Shown in pieces: positions 1-8,911 of a DNA stretch of 64,000 nt. A program made the position numbers and the translations under genes. Position 1 is the stretch's first letter. Every line of letters starts with the position of its first letter. Source of the DNA: Solibacillus sp. FSL R7-0682 (GTDB lineage Bacteria; Bacillota; Bacilli; Bacillales_A; Planococcaceae). Where the stretch lies: contig NZ_JBBOUI010000001.1 in the NCBI RefSeq assembly GCF_038005985.1, forward strand, positions 2,438,001 to 2,502,000, in the 5' to 3' direction. A model generated the notes under the pieces. The model had not been told where the DNA came from and made no database searches. It saw nothing but the letters and a program-made list of their open reading frames with translations.

Positions 1-1110
1 TATCTTTTTTAGTTGATATGTATGTTTTGTATCATCAACAGAAACAGGCTCATACGCAGCGTAGGCTTTAAAGTTTTCGCTAGTACGATTGTCGAGTTCA
101 CGTCTATCTACAAGGAAGATTACTTTATCAAAACCAGCTCTTGTGGATAAAAATAATGCGGTTTTGAAACTCGTAATCGTTTTACCCGAACCCGTAGTAT
201 GCCAAACATAACCACCATGCGGTAATTTCTCTTTATTATCCCAACCAAATGCAGCACCTTCTACCGCCTGTAAAGCGTGTACTTGATAAGGGCGCATTAA
301 CATATGTCGTCTATTTTCTTCATCACGAGCTTCATCAATTACTAAATAATCTCCAATCATCTGATGTGCCATCGGAATCATTAAGAATTGTCCGATCACT
401 TTTTCCCAATCATTGACGATATGATTTTCTTTATCGGACCAATGAAAAATAAAACTTTGATTAAAATCGTTAATAGTTTTAGGTGTCGCAAAATATCGAG
501 TAGCAATTTCAGATGTCATTACCATCATCTGTGAAAAAGCCATAAAGTTGTTACTGTATTCGCCATCACGATAATAACGCATGAATTGTCCGAACGCTTC
601 ATCTAGCGTTTTATCTGTGCGTTTTTGCTCGATGTTGATTAAAGGTAAACCATTAATCAACAGGACTATATCAAATCGGTTGTTATTCGGTGTTTGCACT
701 TCTCGTGCAATTCGATAACTAGAATCTCCACCTCGTACCGCAGCCTTTTTAAAAATCGTCAATGTGATTTGTTTTCTCGTAACATCTGGATGATCATCAC
801 GATAAATACCATCAATCTTTCCTGTGGATTCTTCGATAGCTAAAATCTTCGCAGCTTCATAGCTATTATTAATTTGATTAACTTTCGCCACGACTTGTTT
901 AAATTCGTTATCCGTCAATTCCACGCCTTCCAACATATCAGCATTTATACGGTTTAATTCACTTCGCCAGTGATTTATTAAATCATTAACAGTAATTTTT
1001 TGTTTATTACCGTCCAAAAAATCCGGTGCTTCCCATTTATACTTTTCTAATTCTTTTACAAATTTCTCTTGAAAAATTTTTTCTGAAGCGCTTTTCGGTG
1101 CATTGCTCAT
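1..1110 (-). CDS. hsdR: Type I restriction enzyme HsdR subunit, N-terminal 370 residues (cut by window edge)
   Basis: This is the ATP-dependent restriction and translocation subunit of a type I restriction-modification complex. The frame stays open to position 1, so only the N-terminal 370 residues are visible; the family usually has about 1,000. The visible part shows the PD-(D/E)xK nuclease core (D147 in NRFDIVLLING, then E161-Q-K163), the Q/DEAH helicase entry, and a Walker A box TTGSGKT at residues 305-311 followed by VDRRELD. The ATG at 1108-1110 follows a G-rich ribosome binding site at about 1115-1122, 15 bases after hsdS ends. It is the last gene of the hsdM-hsdS-hsdR operon. The family call is very secure; whether the rest of the gene is intact cannot be seen. 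Confidence 0.95.
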   Translation of the reverse strand, partial: MSNAPKSASEKIFQEKFVKELEKYKWEAPDFLDGNKQKITVNDLINHWRSELNRINADMLEGVELTDNEFKQVVAKVNQINNSYEAAKILAIEESTGKIDGIYRDDHPDVTRKQITLTIFKKAAVRGGDSSYRIAREVQTPNNNRFDIVLLINGLPLINIEQKRTDKTLDEAFGQFMRYYRDGEYSNNFMAFSQMMVMTSEIATRYFATPKTINDFNQSFIFHWSDKENHIVNDWEKVIGQFLMIPMAHQMIGDYLVIDEARDEENRRHMLMRPYQVHALQAVEGAAFGWDNKEKLPHGGYVWHTTGSGKTITSFKTALFLSTRAGFDKVIFLVDRRELDNRTSENFKAYAAYEPVSVDDTKHTYQLKKI

Positions 1111-1125
1111 GACATACCCCCCATT

Positions 1126-2349
1126 CTAAATAAACATTTCATTTAAATAAGCTTTTTTCAAATTTTGCAGTTTTTCTAACTTGCGTTGATGCAGAACAAT
1201 GAGATTACTTAAATTATCTAAGAAAGAAGCTATCTTATTCTGTTCTTCTATACTTGGATAGGAAACAGGAATATTTTCTAATTTTGTGTAATATAAATTT
1301 GATACATTCCCTCCCTCGACACGTTTTGCAAATTCATATTTGAAAAGGGCGTTGAACATGTATGCAGTAAATAATGGATTTTGTTGTGTGTTGTAAACTG
1401 AAATCATTTCGCCTATTGCAACTCCAGGTATGCTAAGCCAACTACAATTTGCGAAATCTAATGGATCTTCGCCTACACGGGGAACAAGAACTTCGTTTCC
1501 GGTACTAAATTTCAAATTTTCTCTTGGAATATTTGTAAAAGAATAAATTGTATCAATTTTTTCTTTGTGTTTCGTATAAAGTTCTCCATATCTTACACAT
1601 GGCGTTGTTGCATCCGATGTTACTGACCATTTTGGAGCGCTTTTTCCATAATAGAAATAGCCAAATTCCCCAATAGTACCTTGTTTCCATGCACCAGTAA
1701 ATCCTGCAAATCTCCTTTTTGGCTCAAGGTCACCCTCATTGGGAAATAGTTCAGACAGATAAGCAAATTTTAAAGCTTGAGCTTTTTCTAACTTACGCTT
1801 TTGAAAAATGATATTGTTCTCTAATTCTTCAAAAAATCTACCAATTTTATTCTGCTCATCATAATTCGGAACCTTGATTTGTAATCCTTTGACAATCGAG
1901 CCTGATAAGTTCCCTTGACCACCTTGGAGATATTTATCTAAAATTTTATGTTTTTGACTGCGTAGCAATTGCATAATAAATTTTGAATCATATCCTTCTA
2001 TTGGCTTAATTGCTAATATTGCTTGGTTAATTGCACCATTAATTTTTGATATTCCAGCTTCTCCACTAGTTGCACCATACATCGCATAAAGTATATCTCC
2101 AACTTCAACCATTTTTGCAGATGATGAATTAAGAGCTTTCTCAGATATAAAAAGTTCAGTACTATCGCTGTTAATCTCACCAGAACGAATGAATGGGATA
2201 TCACCATCGTAATATTCAGATCTACCTACTGATGGTGTACCACCCGAATAAGAATTGGTTATTTTACCCAACTCACACTGTTCCCAACTATTAGTGTTTT
2301 GAAACTCTTGAAATCGTCTTTTGGGTACTAAATTATTTGTTTTCGTCAT
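1126..2349 (-). CDS. hsdS: Type I restriction-modification specificity subunit HsdS
   Basis: HsdS sets the DNA target of both the methylase and the nuclease complex. The 407-residue protein has the usual two-fold build: two target-recognition domains, each opened by a PKRRF-x-x-F repeat (near residues 9 and 209), and each followed by a helical spacer rich in QKRKLEK or HQRKLEK-type sequence (near residues 180 and 385). Two different recognition domains predict a bipartite asymmetric target. The start ATG overlaps the hsdM stop as ATGA, so translation is probably coupled. hsdR begins 15 bases downstream. There is no second hsdS copy or inverted repeat in the window that would suggest phase-variable shuffling. 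Confidence 0.95.
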   Translation of the reverse strand: MTKTNNLVPKRRFQEFQNTNSWEQCELGKITNSYSGGTPSVGRSEYYDGDIPFIRSGEINSDSTELFISEKALNSSSAKMVEVGDILYAMYGATSGEAGISKINGAINQAILAIKPIEGYDSKFIMQLLRSQKHKILDKYLQGGQGNLSGSIVKGLQIKVPNYDEQNKIGRFFEELENNIIFQKRKLEKAQALKFAYLSELFPNEGDLEPKRRFAGFTGAWKQGTIGEFGYFYYGKSAPKWSVTSDATTPCVRYGELYTKHKEKIDTIYSFTNIPRENLKFSTGNEVLVPRVGEDPLDFANCSWLSIPGVAIGEMISVYNTQQNPLFTAYMFNALFKYEFAKRVEGGNVSNLYYTKLENIPVSYPSIEEQNKIASFLDNLSNLIVLHQRKLEKLQNLKKAYLNEMFI

Positions 2350-4910
2350 GATATCACCACCAGTTCTTTCAGCATTACTTCAAATGATGATTCCAAGTTT
2401 CGACTTTGCTCGTCAATCACCGATAAAGTATCTGCATAACGATCATGTAGCATTTTTAATGTGTTTAATTCTTTTTTAAGTGGCATTTCTACCAGATTAA
2501 CTATCATAGCTACTGTGTTACCAAACCATTTTTCATACATCAAGCAATCAATTTCTTCATCTGTTAGAATTAAAATCCGTTCTTGTACCGCTTCTTTAAG
2601 TGCTTTTTCCTCGATTTTAACAGCCTTATTAAGTGCTGATTTATTATCTATTAATTGACTGACTTTTTTTAATAGTTGATATTCTACTGTTTCTTTGCTT
2701 GCTGCTTTTAACTCTGCTTTTACAGCTTTACTCTCAAAGACCTCTCCCGCTTCATTCAACGTATCGCCTAAAGCATTGGCTTCATCACTATCTTCAATCT
2801 TTGCAGCATCTACCAATTCGGACAATTCTGTTTCGATTTTTTGAATTTGTGTTTTCTTTGATTCAATTTCTTCTACTTCTTGACTAAATAAATGTTTTTT
2901 AATCAACTCATTCGGTACAATACTTCCTACCCAACCGTCTTGTTCTTCACGTTTTTTATTTCCTGTTCCTTTTGTAACCATATTCGGCTCACGAGTACGT
3001 CCTACTGTATAGAAATCACTTAGTTTAATAAGTTCTGTATCATGCGTTAGTGATTTTTTCCAAATTTCAGCTACAATTTGATAGCCGTCATACACATCAA
3101 TATAATCAAATGTAGATAAAATTTCTTTAATTTCAATAAGCATTTTTTCCATCAAATGTGTCAAATTCGTTTGGTCATCCACGTTTCGTAAAGTATCCCA
3201 ATATTTATCGATATAAACATTCGCTTTATCTTCCACTTTTTTTGATAGTTCAATAATTCGTGCGTCGTTTAAGACATCGACTGTTATGTCATCCACTGAT
3301 TTTATCAGTCCAACATAGCCTTCACGAACTTGTTTCAAAGACTGTCCCAAAATATCAGACACCATAGATTGTAAAATTTTCAAATCAGCTATATTTTGTT
3401 GAGGAATACCTCCAAAAACATGGGCATCTACATCTTGTGGTATTTCTTCGTCAATCGACTCAATATAACGAGGGATGTTCAGATTGTATTGATTTTCAAG
3501 TATTTCTTTACGAGTAGCTAAATGGCTATAACCAGCTTCTTCTCTACGTTCCACATACGTATCCACGATTTTAGCAATATCTTTTTCCTGTAACACATTT
3601 TGCTTTCCTACTTTGATAAAGCCACGAGAAGCGTCAATAAGTAGCACCGAATCATTAATTTGACGATTTTTTTTCAAAACAAGGATAGCTACAGGAATGC
3701 TTGTATTCGTAAATAGGTTACTCGGTAAACCAATGATGGTATCAATGTAATTTTTCTCAAGTAAACGTTCACGAATTTCACCTTCCGCGCCCCCACGGAA
3801 TAACACACCATGAGGCAATACGATAGCCATCGTTCCATTTGTACCTAAGTGGAATAATCCATGTAAAAGGAAAGCGAAATCTCCTTTAGAATCGGGTGGT
3901 AATATGCCCGCTACTTCAAAACGAGGGTCACTTACTTTTAAATTCGATTTATTCCATTTTTTAGCAGAATAAGGAGGATTCATAACAACCGCATCAAATT
4001 GTACACCTTCGTTTGGACGGTCCGGATCTTCCGGCCAATCATGTGATAGTGTATCGCCATTTTTAATCGTCATTTTATCCGGACGTACACCATGAAGTAG
4101 CAAATTCATACGCGTTAAGTTATAAGTCGCTGTATTTTTTTCTTGACCATAGTAATTTAAGTTCGCTTGAGCATCTTCGCTTAAATGTTTCTTAACTGTT
4201 AGTAGCAACGAACCCGAACCAACAGTGGGGTCATAAATCGATGTAACCTTTGTTGTTTTTGCTACAATTTGTGCCATAACCTCACTAACTTGATGAGGTG
4301 TATAGAACTCACCCGCCTTTTTCCCCGATTCCATTGCAAACTGACCTATAAGGTATTCATAAGCATCACCAAGAATATCCCCTTTTTGTAATGCCACCAT
4401 GTTTAAATCTGAAAATAATAAAATAAGTGCTTTAATATTTTTACTACGTTCATTTAAGTTACTACCTAAAGCTGTATCTGTTAAATCCAACGTTGAACTT
4501 GAAAATAAGCCTTTAAAGTCATCTGCATCATTCGAAACGGCAATAGTACGCTCAAAATTATTCAAACTATCTGTTACTTTTTGAACTTCAAACTCACCCG
4601 AATCAATATCTCGTAACCACGTCTGATATAGATACGCAGGAGTTACATAGTAACCAAGTACGTCTTGAATCATTTTTTCTAATTCTTCTCCATACTCTTC
4701 TTGCGCTTTTTTATATTCATTAACCAATTCCGATTCCGATATTTGCCCTAAACCGCTGGCTGTTCTGAATGTTTCTAAAGTTTTATCACTAAGAAACTTA
4801 TAGAACATTAACCCAAGCATATAATCTTTATAACGGCTTGCATCCATTGAACCACGAAGTTCGTTGGCTCCATCCCATAATCTGCGTTTAATTTCTTCTG
4901 ATGTAATCAT
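2346..4910 (-). CDS. hsdM: Type I restriction-modification N6-adenine methylase HsdM
   Basis: HsdM transfers a methyl group from SAM to adenine N6 at the site chosen by HsdS. The N-terminal HsdM bundle (ASRYKDYMLGLMFYKFLSD) is followed by SAM motif I DPTVGSGS at about residues 227-234 and catalytic motif IV NPPY at 311-314. At 854 residues it is longer than the 500-550 of many HsdM proteins. The extra C-terminal part is charged, helical and coiled-coil-like (about 530-854). A frame exists four codons upstream, but the GGAGG at 4916-4920 lies five bases before the ATG at 4908-4910, so that start is chosen. It is the first gene of the hsdMSR operon. Confidence 0.95.
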   Translation of the reverse strand: MITSEEIKRRLWDGANELRGSMDASRYKDYMLGLMFYKFLSDKTLETFRTASGLGQISESELVNEYKKAQEEYGEELEKMIQDVLGYYVTPAYLYQTWLRDIDSGEFEVQKVTDSLNNFERTIAVSNDADDFKGLFSSSTLDLTDTALGSNLNERSKNIKALILLFSDLNMVALQKGDILGDAYEYLIGQFAMESGKKAGEFYTPHQVSEVMAQIVAKTTKVTSIYDPTVGSGSLLLTVKKHLSEDAQANLNYYGQEKNTATYNLTRMNLLLHGVRPDKMTIKNGDTLSHDWPEDPDRPNEGVQFDAVVMNPPYSAKKWNKSNLKVSDPRFEVAGILPPDSKGDFAFLLHGLFHLGTNGTMAIVLPHGVLFRGGAEGEIRERLLEKNYIDTIIGLPSNLFTNTSIPVAILVLKKNRQINDSVLLIDASRGFIKVGKQNVLQEKDIAKIVDTYVERREEAGYSHLATRKEILENQYNLNIPRYIESIDEEIPQDVDAHVFGGIPQQNIADLKILQSMVSDILGQSLKQVREGYVGLIKSVDDITVDVLNDARIIELSKKVEDKANVYIDKYWDTLRNVDDQTNLTHLMEKMLIEIKEILSTFDYIDVYDGYQIVAEIWKKSLTHDTELIKLSDFYTVGRTREPNMVTKGTGNKKREEQDGWVGSIVPNELIKKHLFSQEVEEIESKKTQIQKIETELSELVDAAKIEDSDEANALGDTLNEAGEVFESKAVKAELKAASKETVEYQLLKKVSQLIDNKSALNKAVKIEEKALKEAVQERILILTDEEIDCLMYEKWFGNTVAMIVNLVEMPLKKELNTLKMLHDRYADTLSVIDEQSRNLESSFEVMLKELVVIS

Positions 4911-5033
4911 ATAAACCTCCATTTAACTTCCTATATAAATTTAATATTTTAATGAAATAATTTATTTTTATAACATTATCTTAATGGTACTGAGTGCGAA
5001 ATATTTATTGATTTTTATATTTAAAGTTTCTTT

Positions 5034-5071
5034 AGAAATAAGAACCCATATTTTTTAGAGTTCTTATTTCT
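5034..5071 (-). terminator. Hairpin terminator after the methylase-specificity fusion gene
   Basis: A perfect 12-base inverted repeat (5034-5045 AGAAATAAGAAC with 5060-5071) sits just downstream of the minus-strand gene ending at 5084. The T-rich right arm TTCTTATTTCT on the minus strand serves as a weak U tract. It would separate that gene from the hsdMSR operon. Confidence 0.6.
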
Positions 5072-5083
5072 AATATTCAAAAC

Positions 5084-6952
5084 TTAAAAAGTCTTAAAAG
5101 CTTTAGTTAACCCTATTTTCTCATAAAGCTCATAATAATTGGAACTATATTTTTCCTTCGCCTGCTGAATCGCTCTTTCCAATTCCTTATCAACCTCTTC
5201 AAACGCTGCTCCTAATCTATTTTGCATTTCAGCATCTACTTTAGGAACAGGAATCGATTCAATGTCTTTAACACTTAATACTGCCACAACAGTACCTTTC
5301 TGCTTAGAGTTAATATAATACGTACCAATTGGGCTTTCTAAAAACGACTTAATAAAGTACGAATTCACGTTATTATTAGGACGAATAACGATAAAGTTAT
5401 GCGAAGCAATAAGCTTTTTATCTAATGCTGGCACGATGGCAATTTTAATTGCTGTGCCTCGGCTAGATAATAAAATATCTCCCTCTTTTACTTCATACCC
5501 ATTCGCCTTATCTCGCTCTAAATCGATTGTATTTAACTGCTGGAACTGAATTTTACCATCTTGTACATCAGCCAATTGTAGCAAGTGATACTCCCCTTCT
5601 TGCTGTTCTAAATCTTTTTTTGGTGGTGTATTCATTCCTCTAATGATAGTGGCCAATTCTTTCAATTCAGCCTTTGGAGTAGAATCATTTTCATACGTAT
5701 TTTTGTTTACTAAAACATTGCCAAAAATACTTTCTACATTATCCTCAGTAAAGTAATGTGCAATATTTAAGTTGGCATCTTCAATTTCTTCAACTGAAAC
5801 AAACATGCTGTATTGCTTCATTTCTTCAGCATTGTGATACGCACTAATGATTTTTTCTTGAACCTCTGCTCTTAAAACGTTTTGACCTCGTGTTTTTTCA
5901 ATATGGTCTTGTGCATTAATGAATTGAATTTTGCCTTTTCTTTCAACAGACTTCTTTTTATTTAAAATAAGAATCGCTACAGGGATGTTAGTAGTAAAGA
6001 ATAAGTTTTGAGGAAGGCCAATGATTGCTTCAATTAAATCTTCCTCTAAAAGAGCTTGTCGTATTTTTTTATCCGCACCACCTCTAAATAACGTACCATG
6101 TGTAACAATCAGCGCTGCTTTACCATCTTCCTTTAATGACGCGATAGCATGCTGTACAAATGCCATATCTGCATTAGAATTGCTCGGAATACCATATTTA
6201 TATCGATTGTATAAGTCGTACTCAGCTCTTTCACTTCCCCAATTCTTTAACGAAAATGGGAAATTCATCAAAACATAATCAAATTTCTTTAACTGACCTT
6301 CAACAAAAGCAGGTTCCGATAATGTATTTCCTAAAGCATATTGATGATCAACACCATGAATAATTGAATTCATTTTCCCTAATGCGTAAATTGACGGATT
6401 AATTTCTTGTCCGTATAAACAAACGTTTTGCCCGTGTTTCTGTGCGTATTTAGCTGCTTCTGTTAATAGCAGCGCTGCACCAGCTGTTCCATCATATACT
6501 TCTCCGCCTCTTATATTTAAAAGTGATGGTAATAATTCCGCCAACGATTTCGGCGTTAAAAACTCGCCGCCAGCTTTACCTTCTTGTGAGGCAAAGTGAT
6601 ATAACATCTCTTTAAAGGTTTCTGGTGTTACTGGAATTTGATTGATAACCGATATTAAATATTCAACTGTTTTTTCATCTAGCTTTGTTACATGTTCGAT
6701 TGCGAATACTTGCTGTAATCCAGGATTAGCTTTTTCAATTTCTATAAAAGCATTTATTAATACCGATTTTAAATCCTGTCTTTGAAAAACGATGTTACTC
6801 CATTTTGCTGCTTCACTAACTACAAATTTTTTTTCAATTTCAATTTGCTTCAGAGTCATTGCTGATCCTATAACATGTTTGTATTCTAAAACATCAATAT
6901 GACCCTTTAACACATTTGTAAGCTTTCCAAAAGCTATGTTTAAATCACCCAT
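5084..6952 (-). CDS. Orphan N6-adenine DNA methylase fused to a type I specificity (HsdS-like) domain
   Basis: The 622-residue protein joins an HsdM-type methylase (about 1-410) to a single HsdS-like target-recognition domain and terminal helix (about 430-622, including GDILLSSRGTA and the LERAIQQAKEKY-type helix). Known type I M proteins carry DPxxGSG and NPP(Y/F). Here motif I reads DGTAGAA at about residues 154-160, and motif IV reads NFPF at 230-233, so both depart from the consensus. It may be a solitary methylase with a half-site specificity, or an altered enzyme. No nuclease gene lies beside it except the separate hsd operon 3' of it. The ATG at 6950-6952 has GGGAGG just upstream and is preferred to an upstream TTG. 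Several operator-like repeats precede it. Confidence 0.85.
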   Translation of the reverse strand: MGDLNIAFGKLTNVLKGHIDVLEYKHVIGSAMTLKQIEIEKKFVVSEAAKWSNIVFQRQDLKSVLINAFIEIEKANPGLQQVFAIEHVTKLDEKTVEYLISVINQIPVTPETFKEMLYHFASQEGKAGGEFLTPKSLAELLPSLLNIRGGEVYDGTAGAALLLTEAAKYAQKHGQNVCLYGQEINPSIYALGKMNSIIHGVDHQYALGNTLSEPAFVEGQLKKFDYVLMNFPFSLKNWGSERAEYDLYNRYKYGIPSNSNADMAFVQHAIASLKEDGKAALIVTHGTLFRGGADKKIRQALLEEDLIEAIIGLPQNLFFTTNIPVAILILNKKKSVERKGKIQFINAQDHIEKTRGQNVLRAEVQEKIISAYHNAEEMKQYSMFVSVEEIEDANLNIAHYFTEDNVESIFGNVLVNKNTYENDSTPKAELKELATIIRGMNTPPKKDLEQQEGEYHLLQLADVQDGKIQFQQLNTIDLERDKANGYEVKEGDILLSSRGTAIKIAIVPALDKKLIASHNFIVIRPNNNVNSYFIKSFLESPIGTYYINSKQKGTVVAVLSVKDIESIPVPKVDAEMQNRLGAAFEEVDKELERAIQQAKEKYSSNYYELYEKIGLTKAFKTF

Positions 6953-6962
6953 AATTACCTCC

Positions 6963-7135
6963 CAATCCAATTACCCTAAAAAGTAATTGGATTAATTTAT
7001 TTTTATTGATAAAAAAAGAGAAGCTATATTAGCACCAACTTTTTTCTGCCTTGATAATAAGATAACAGACAATTTTATAAAAGTAAATACATTTTATAGA
7101 AAAAATAATAATTAATTTAAAAAGTAATCCAATTA
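6963..7135. promoter_or_regulatory. Three copies of a TAATCCAATTA-type site upstream of the methylase fusion gene
   Basis: CAATCCAATTA lies at 6963-6973, its reverse complement TAATTGGATTA at 6984-6994, and a further TAATCCAATTA at 7125-7135. The first two form a perfect 11-base inverted repeat with an 8-base loop, touching the ribosome binding site of the methylase gene. This placement fits an operator or a translational hairpin. The binding protein is unknown. The 280 bases between the gene and the helicase remnant hold no gene. Confidence 0.45.
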
Positions 7136-7235
7136 ACTTATATTTTGTGGGGTATTAAGCTACAAAGCTTCAATCGCTGTTGTACTTTCATATTAGTTTT
7201 ATATTTCAAGGTTCATATCCATATAATTATTTAGA

Positions 7236-7686: not shown

Positions 7687-7989
7687 TTACAATATATCTT
7701 CTAGTTTATTCTGTGATATGACTATTTTAATAGTCACTTCTTGTAATCCTAAATGTTCACTCAATTCAGGTATACTCATTTGTTTCTCATATAACTTCAT
7801 AATTTCTTGAGCAATTATTGCTTTTCTTTGCCTTCGTTCTATATTATTACGTTCTAAAATCCGATAAACCTCGGTTTTACTAATACCAAACTCCTTAGCA
7901 ATAGTCGGTGCGCCCAATTTTTCCATTATATACATTTGAATAACCTTTTTCTCTACTACTGCCCTTCCTAACTTCTGAATGCTATTCAT
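7687..7989 (-). CDS. Small double helix-turn-helix protein
   Basis: The 100-residue product has two consecutive helix-turn-helix-like segments: about 11-55 (GAPTIAKEFGISKTEVYRIL) and about 57-98 (SIPELSEHLGLQEVTIKIVI). Both resemble the two N-terminal HTH units of the endonuclease gene just upstream. The start codon overlaps the stop of that gene by 8 bases (ATGAATAG), so the two are very likely co-translated. It may be a DNA-binding partner or repressor of the endonuclease. No family name is certain. Confidence 0.65.
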   Translation of the reverse strand: MNSIQKLGRAVVEKKVIQMYIMEKLGAPTIAKEFGISKTEVYRILERNNIERRQRKAIIAQEIMKLYEKQMSIPELSEHLGLQEVTIKIVISQNKLEDIL

Positions 7990-8911
7990 CTATATCACCT
8001 TTTTTATATGCATTTGAAAGCCTACTCTTTTTATCTTCCCTATATAATGTACTTCCGTCACTATACAGGATATCATTTAGCATTTTGAGCTTATCTATCC
8101 CTCGAACATATACTCTAAATAACCATGTTTGATTAGGTTTCTCAAGATTTAATTTGGGTTCCAAACCATATTCTTGGAGAATATCATAAAATGCTAAAGC
8201 AAAAGATTCACTAGCAGTAACGAAACCAGCTTCTCTTTTTGAAAAATGTCCGTCCCCGTCAAAAAGCGCTCTTAACATAGAAGGGATTAAGACTTCAGGA
8301 ACTTTTGGCATCTCCAAAGTTTTAGATTTATTTGGATGTAACTTATAATTTTCCATTAATGAACGGACCATTTTTTTGCTTCTAACAATTAGGGAAGGAA
8401 CACCGTTACCATATTCATAAATAATATGTTCATCTGCACCCATTTCTACTGCAACCTTTTTAAGCAAATCATAATCTTTTTGTATGATGGAGAAACCTAG
8501 AAGATCTTTATGTATGGTTCCATCCGTTTGTATAAGTGCAACAATATACATGACGCTTGGATTTAATGAATCAAAATAAGCTTCATTTATTATATGCTTT
8601 CTAGGTTGCCTTCTTATCGAAACAAAATTCTCTCTTAGGATTTGCAACACCGAATCACCAGATATACCATACATCTTCCCTATTTTAACTGCAGATATTT
8701 TTGGAGAAGATTTATAAATAGATATAATCTCCTTAACTTCGACGCTTGAAAGTTCTATTTTGGGATTTCTGTTCGGATAAATACCATATTTACCCAATAT
8801 TCTGTATATGGTACTTCTAGCTTTGTAATGAGACTGTTTCACAATATCCTCCACTGACACTCCAGAATAATAAAGTAAAATAATTTCCTCTTTAGTAAGA
8901 ACCTTACTCAT
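7982..8911 (-). CDS. LAGLIDADG-type endonuclease with two N-terminal helix-turn-helix domains
   Basis: The 309-residue protein starts with two HTH-like units (about 7-45 and 54-95). The C-terminal half carries two degenerate LAGLIDADG helices: YIVALIQTDG at 122-131 (D130) and LRALFDGDG at 213-221 (D220). Two acidic motifs in one chain fit a monomeric homing endonuclease fold, which cleaves long DNA sites. No intron or intein surrounds it, so it is free-standing. It could act as a mobile-element nuclease or as a DNA-binding regulator that reuses the fold. A GGGAAGG site precedes the ATG. The following small HTH gene overlaps its end. Confidence 0.8.
   Translation of the reverse strand: MSKVLTKEEIILLYYSGVSVEDIVKQSHYKARSTIYRILGKYGIYPNRNPKIELSSVEVKEIISIYKSSPKISAVKIGKMYGISGDSVLQILRENFVSIRRQPRKHIINEAYFDSLNPSVMYIVALIQTDGTIHKDLLGFSIIQKDYDLLKKVAVEMGADEHIIYEYGNGVPSLIVRSKKMVRSLMENYKLHPNKSKTLEMPKVPEVLIPSMLRALFDGDGHFSKREAGFVTASESFALAFYDILQEYGLEPKLNLEKPNQTWLFRVYVRGIDKLKMLNDILYSDGSTLYREDKKSRLSNAYKKGDIDE

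Follow-up and report, generated by a model that had tools for sequence, protein, structure and literature searches.

Gene content of the locus

The window analysed here is a stretch of 64,000 nucleotides from Solibacillus sp. FSL R7-0682 (contig NZ_JBBOUI010000001.1, positions 2,438,001 to 2,502,000). On its minus strand lies a gene that joins an HsdM-like methylase domain and one HsdS-like half-specificity domain in a single chain (the M and S parts of the fusion), and hsdM, hsdS and hsdR follow downstream, all on the same strand. The genes and domains are:

1..1110, minus strand, hsdR, truncated at the window edge, 1027 aa in the genome (position and match to annotated type I R subunits)
1126..2349, minus strand, hsdS with two Methylase_S stretches (Pfam)
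2346..4922, minus strand, ordinary hsdM with DPTVGSG and NPPY (Pfam, motifs)
5084..6952, minus strand, M*-S fusion gene, HsdM-like domain plus one HsdS-like half-specificity domain, 622 aa from ATG
5162..5668, minus strand, single Methylase_S (TRD) domain of the fusion, residues 429-597 (Pfam PF01420)
5741..6610, minus strand, N6_Mtase domain of the fusion, residues 115-404 (Pfam PF02384)
6254..6265, minus strand, motif IV variant NFPF, residues 230-233 (translation)
6473..6493, minus strand, motif I variant DGTAGAA, residues 154-160 (translation)

ORF reading revealed an intact frame in a single ORF, the longest version of which (5084-6970) opens with a TTG at 6970 that adds 6 codons. The start is likely the ATG at 6952, because GGGAGG sits before it. 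An earlier note on this DNA had described a one-frame fusion of an HsdM-like and one HsdS-like domain at 5084-6952, with DGTAGAA as motif I and NFPF as motif IV; ORF reading and Pfam confirmed the bounds and the architecture, and both motif variants were present in the gene. The N6_Mtase match was strong (270 bits against a cut-off of 20.4, E 3.6e-80). Methylase_S gave one stretch only (50 bits), where an HsdS would have two TRDs per chain. The fusion stayed under the TIGR00497 hsdM equivalog cut-off (169.2 vs 242.75 bits), and HsdM_N stayed under its Pfam cut-off (22.7 vs 24.5 bits). N6_Mtase, Methylase_S, Eco57I and sub-threshold HsdM_N and ASCH made up all the Pfam matches; the scan detected no fused nuclease domain of the kind that marks type IIB/IIG enzymes, and no HTH, RptR-type fold or other classical regulator domain. 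The AlphaFold model, built from 4 sequences, was weak (pLDDT 62.6, pTM 0.51) and was therefore applied solely to fold-level matching; this low-confidence model shows a long C-terminal helix on the S part.

The fusion and hsdM are separated by a 161-bp gap holding an inverted repeat, so the R-M genes of the window could have a promoter of their own. This long AT-rich repeat, which falls between the end of the fusion frame and hsdM (4923-5083), may act as a terminator or processing site. Upstream of the fusion, at 7687-8911, lies a pair of genes, one for a small HTH-like and one for a LAGLIDADG-type protein, that may constitute a homing element; the corresponding upstream genes in the relative L015 differ in length.

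Distribution of the fusion family

Genome samples and plasmid records yielded 35 fusion loci, the window included. Three near-duplicates among them (L026, L077 and L085) were left out of the counts of 32, and a fusion on a Lactobacillus amylovorus plasmid (L099) was added later, giving 33 loci, or 36 with the duplicates. Counting the window's own genome each time, fusions were found in 2 of 16 genomes of its genus, 10 of 261 of its family, 16 of 398 of the class sample (full-length rows) and 7 of 398 of the phylum sample. The named hosts were Bacillota, and the relatives in the genome samples belonged to the window's phylum. Judged from this sampling, the fusion is a widespread family and not a lone oddity; the idea that the window gene is a lone degenerate copy was rejected, since the 35 loci share its motif drift.

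A search for related loci with the fusion protein of the window alone found none. The alignment-based search of genome contigs gave four loci, of which L028, L029 and L031 are apparently the same as L083, L016 and L096, already reached via genomes, while L030 matches the M part only. Viral contigs, searched with the alignment and with the L025 protein, contained no fusion, and no match in phage records spanned 80% of the fusion. A Mesorhizobium plasmid locus (L027) was excluded from every count, its S and M genes being separate.

Genes behind the fusions

In 25 of the 35 loci and, with L099, in 26 of 36 (L026, L077, L085 and the L077 fragment counted), the fusion was followed by a type I hsdM of the same orientation; these 26 fusions thus stand where an R-M autoregulator is expected, at the head of an R-M operon. 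Most fusions were first in the defence operon, sometimes after a small accessory gene, and in some loci DUF2325 or another small gene stood before the fusion or between it and hsdM. The neighbouring HsdMs were widely divergent and covered many type I subtypes, indicating that the fusion is not tied to one subtype. Other fusions precede an MmeI-like type IIG enzyme (L020), MzaA/DrmA/DrmB-like, that is DISARM-like, genes (L086), or a PLD-helicase with a IIG-like methylase (L080). In L017 and L077 the type I operon behind is in fragments while the fusion and its paired dyads are intact. Six loci (L019, L021, L024, L083, L087 and L095) had no recognised R-M genes behind the fusion in the stretch examined.

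The S half of the fusion does not appear to track the specificity of the R-M system. In five loci whose HsdMs were 67-93% identical, the HsdS proteins were just 29-38% identical, and the M and S halves of the fusion diverged together (92% and 89% identity, respectively, between L022 and L078).

Accessory genes were seen next to the fusion in L016, L018, L023, L088, L089, L094, L096 and L098. Those of L016, L023 and L096 encode DUF2325 proteins; the others apparently form two uncharacterised families of about 157-171 and 215-265 aa, and none of the four non-DUF2325 proteins scanned was above any Pfam cut-off. In Lactococcus cremoris plasmid pJM2A (L025, 13504-22977), the type I operon behind the fusion comes with a recombinase and short, oppositely oriented hsdS genes, which suggests an invertible specificity cassette.

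Palindromic sites upstream of the fusions

The region before the window fusion contains the following features:

6964..6993, no strand, inverted repeat AATCCAATTAC-N8-GTAATTGGATT, overlapping the proximal operator, just before the ribosome-binding site
6982..6996, minus strand, proximal putative operator ATTAATCCAATTACT (upstream dyad reading)
7054..7081, minus strand, promoter-like hexamers TTTATA-N16-TATTAT between the two putative operators, a weak consensus match
7123..7137, minus strand, distal putative operator GTTAATTGGATTACT (upstream dyad reading)

The two window sites are 141 bp apart, the same spacing as in Lactococcus L025. This region holds 12 such promoter-like hexamer pairs, where chance alone predicts 10.6. 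The transcript before the fusion (6962-6995) forms a predicted RNA hairpin of -15 kcal/mol (z -4.1) that ends beside the ribosome-binding site and may add translational control in the window. In L015, a shorter inverted repeat was seen by eye at the corresponding position.

Bipartite dyads before the gene or operon included three site classes: AGTA-N6/7-TACT, GGAAT-N5-ATACC and GTTAA-N5-TTACT. The window and L015 carry the last variant; one window copy reads ATTAA, and the proximal site falls outside the class rules, which demand GTTAA. A first strict site pattern had missed the window, L015 and the GGAAT class. Under four DNA-only rules, 20 of the 33 non-redundant loci had sites, 13 had at least two, and 13 had none; no locus mixed classes. 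As these rules were written after the sites had been seen, they describe and do not predict; the dyad counts and the held-out shuffle test below are independent of them. Repeated palindromic putative sites before the own gene or operon, as expected of R-M autoregulators, are thus present in the family. In L016 and L096 the two sites are one before each of two genes. The sites typically lie near -130 to -190 and near -30 to -50, and TTGACA/TATAAT-like hexamers occupy the space between them, so that the two copies often flank a promoter-like pair.

A generic per-locus test for paired dyads was weak (9 of 35 loci at p<0.05; the window itself p 0.87). Such a score is too blunt for AT-rich DNA, and an unbiased dyad count followed by a held-out shuffle test was used instead. 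With dinucleotide shuffles as the reference, GTAT-N5-ATAC occurred in 8 of 32 upstream regions (0.20 expected) and AGTA-N7-TACT in 7 of 32 (0.24 expected; none of 200 shuffles gave more than 2). AGTA-N7-TACT and AGTA-N6-TACT were each present in at least two copies in 3 regions, which occurred in none of the 200 shuffles. By raw count, dyads of T and A only were equally frequent (TTTT-N2-AAAA in 9 regions, 3.9 expected), and the largest count of any dyad in the shuffles averaged 7.4; the case therefore rests on observed against expected numbers. The best dyad against its own expectation was GTAT-N5-ATAC (p 1.9e-11), and none of 200 held-out shuffles was as extreme (smallest 4.7e-6).

AGTA-N6/7-TACT was concentrated before the fusions, where 11 of 32 upstream regions contained 17 sites in all (1.61 per kb; shuffled regions, mean 0.57 and at most 3 of 32). 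Before operon-first accessory genes, regions unused in the dyad count that had supplied the pattern, there were 7 sites in 5 of 10. The other ORFs of the same loci gave 4 sites in 4 of 271 (0.045 per kb), and the pattern was absent upstream of all 17 ordinary hsdM genes. Fisher tests gave p 3e-9 for fusions, 2e-6 for accessory genes and 0.009 against hsdM; AT content was 0.68 in the fusion and 0.71 in the accessory regions, versus 0.63 (other ORFs) and 0.62 (hsdM) in the controls. In the window's own genome (4.06 Mb), the site pattern matched the two promoter sites only, which is weak support because those same sites had supplied the pattern and the reversed control also matched once. Within the window, 5 matches with at most one mismatch were found, a number equalled or exceeded in 18 of 100 shuffles and so not above chance. 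Both sites are present even in L021 and L095, whose fusions are followed by no recognised R-M genes, indicating that the sites belong to the fusion gene.

Site class tracked the S domain better than the M domain. In 20 loci, S-domain identity was 38.8% within and 33.9% between site classes (p 0.0015). The M domain showed no such association (p 0.28), and that of the N-terminal region was weak if any (p 0.08). When close relatives were removed, the S-domain association weakened (p 0.006, 0.014 and 0.031), while the M domain never fell below 0.33. Nearest neighbours agreed in site class in 16 of 20 loci by S and in 14 of 20 by M. An earlier test with hand-assigned classes gave the same picture as this rule-based one.

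Drift of the catalytic motifs

The earlier note had proposed to look for the two motif variants in homologues, where NFPF indeed recurred. Motif I lacked the proline at position 2 in all 35 fusions. This is not diagnostic alone, since three ordinary neighbour HsdMs with NPPY/F also lack it (DGACGTG, DGAIGTG and DQACGTG). Motif IV was NFPF in 6 of the 35, DAPF, DPPF and SPPF in 3 each, and VPPF, HPPL and NPPF in 2 each; the remaining fourteen forms were singletons, among them EPPF, TPPA and TPRF. The catalytic pattern (N/D/S)PP(F/Y/W), which the NFPF of the window does not fit, was found in just 8 of 35 (NPPF 2, DPPF 3, SPPF 3). A sequencing error hiding NPPF was rejected, because NFPF recurs in 6 of the 35 fusions, including a 73%-identical relative in the window's genus.

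The first residue of motif IV was N, D, S, H, V, E or T across the fusions, and N, D or S in 26 of 33. Ordinary adenine methylases use N, D or S at this position. NFPF itself resembles N-[LI]-P-[YF], the form found in KsgA, Erm and other active RNA adenine methylases. The intact ordinary HsdMs behind fusions kept NPPF/Y in 25 of 25 cases (near-duplicates L026 and L085 counted; a 26th, in L077, is a fragment and stands outside this count). Most SAM-site residues were kept in the 33 fusions: the D of motif I in 31, the E/D of motif II in 32 and the D/N of motif III in 32. Since the catalytic residue of some relatives is V, H, E or T, the family as a whole probably does not need methylation, and the fusion may have lost catalysis.

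Possible function of the fusion

From the above, the fusion probably serves as a dedicated transcription regulator, assembled from parts of a type I methyltransferase, that controls its own gene and the defence genes downstream. Two copies would pair via their half-S domains and recognise a bipartite palindrome in the manner of a type I methyltransferase, one TRD per chain implying a homodimer for such a site. The homodimer would bind the two putative sites flanking its own promoter and thereby limit its own expression and that of the R-M, DISARM-like or type IIG genes behind, activation being possible as well. As most SAM-site residues are kept, the catalytically drifted HsdM-like part may serve dimerisation and SAM sensing instead of methylation. 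Autoregulation together with co-control of the genes behind is the economical reading of a family that combines drifted motifs, a place before diverse defence operons, paired dyads and co-variation of the sites with the S domain. Of the options given in the earlier note, a DNA-binding protein that no longer methylates is thus the favoured one, with a regulatory role and a presumed loss of catalysis.

An alternative that we consider unlikely is that the fusion, as an orphan adenine methyltransferase whose catalytic loop is altered, is active and methylates the bipartite palindrome, including the sites in its own promoter, and so forms an epigenetic autoregulatory loop. The N, D or S of most fusions, the kept SAM-site residues and the precedent of KsgA and Erm are consistent with it, and the sites, which have adenines in each half, resemble type I targets. 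However, in relatives with VPPF, HPPL, EPPF, TPPA or TPRF the catalytic residue is V, H, E or T, and the sites persist in several of these (two in the VPPF Lactococcus L025, two in the EPPF L016), while the intact HsdMs next door have all kept NPPF/Y.

It is quite improbable that the fusion joins the neighbouring type I enzyme as an additional subunit, its half-S and pseudo-M pairing with the real HsdM to change specificity or borrow HsdR. PacII does use both an M1 and an M2, these are the nearest solved M domains, and a type I hsdM lies behind the fusion in 26 of 36 loci. However, the neighbouring HsdMs differ widely, and the promoter dyads would be left unexplained. The borrowing of HsdR in particular, which the earlier note had suggested, is unlikely because some fusions have no recognised R-M genes or stand beside type IIG or DISARM-like genes, and because the S half ignores the specificity changes of HsdS.

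The comparisons at sequence level indicate that both halves of the fusion are under purifying selection. Between the window fusion and L015, dN/dS was 0.15 (M part) and 0.13 (S part), and five pairs of usable divergence that keep the R-M operon gave 0.11-0.20 for both halves. L017/L077, with decayed R-M genes, gave 0.06-0.25 (the M/S border is approximate), and the values of 0.31-1.10 for the very close pairs L084/L085 and L025/L026 are noisy. None of the listed fusion matches had internal stops, though loci were then collected as open frames, a procedure biased towards intact genes. That the gene is the decaying remnant of a former type I system, which the drifted motifs and the fragmented type I genes behind L017 and L077 might suggest, is therefore highly improbable given the low dN/dS in both halves (in L017/L077 despite the decayed R-M genes), the lack of internal stops with this bias and the maintained paired dyads.

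Returning to the regulator, a wider reading can be put forward more tentatively: across Bacillota, a type I methyltransferase may have become a transcription factor family in which the half-S domain reads type-I-like bipartite operators and a pseudo-methylase, perhaps SAM-sensing, gates R-M, type IIG and DISARM-like operons. If this is true, the own recognition part of a restriction enzyme has been reused as a transcription factor. The family offers a specific putative regulator ahead of many restriction operons, and the annotation of fusions as 'N-6 DNA methylase' may mislead methylome studies.

Relation to known systems

The fusion shares the M fold and a TRD with HsdM/HsdS of EcoR124I and EcoKI. 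Unlike in these enzymes, M and half-S are in one chain, motifs I and IV have drifted, the gene is an extra one beside a complete hsdM-hsdS-hsdR set, and dyads lie in its own promoter. The proposed arrangement resembles the engineered EcoR124INT, a half-S dimer that reads a bipartite palindrome, as far as the accessible description of that protein goes. In both structure and sequence, the M part was closest to PacII M1M2S (PDB 7vru, 7vs4), in which M1, M2 and S are, in the accessible account, separate chains of a DNA-bound enzyme, unlike the fusion.

Autogenous control has been described for other R-M systems. The nearest concept is RptR, the first gene of type I operons, which represses its own promoter at repeated palindromes; it is a 9-kDa alpha-helical dimer on TAGCTA from Gammaproteobacteria, and the accessible part of the paper makes no mention of methylase or TRD parts for this unrelated protein (PMC12255303). 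According to the accessible text of an R-M review, a C protein that precedes the type I hsd operon of Mycoplasma gallisepticum appears to repress the whole operon, C proteins bind via HTH motifs, and methylase-repressor fusions are described for type II R-M, with little known for type I (PMC12707154). These C proteins and methylase-repressor fusions share with the fusion the autogenous control of R-M genes proposed here, whereas its DNA reader would be a specificity-subunit domain, no HTH having been found in it. A variant type I system of Staphylococcus xylosus needs two specificity units and, from the part of the report at hand, is a different thing (PMC10030836). Among the matches listed in the open-licence literature, there was no HsdM-HsdS fusion acting as a regulator. 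We infer that the fusions constitute a new variant, at the level of a family, of the R-M autoregulators; it is assembled from parts of type I enzymes and has a predicted regulatory function.

The closest solved relative of the S part was Esub1 (PDB 8vsq, 8vsr; E 7.7e-21, target TM-score 0.86), which, unlike the fusion, is a stand-alone domain of about 200 residues and was co-crystallised with Prx. We take the Prx of 8vsq/8vsr to be the streptococcal phage protein paratox. No paper on Esub1 was found in the open-licence literature, and the Prx paper found there says nothing on restriction. Given this co-crystal, phage proteins might target half-S domains like Esub1.
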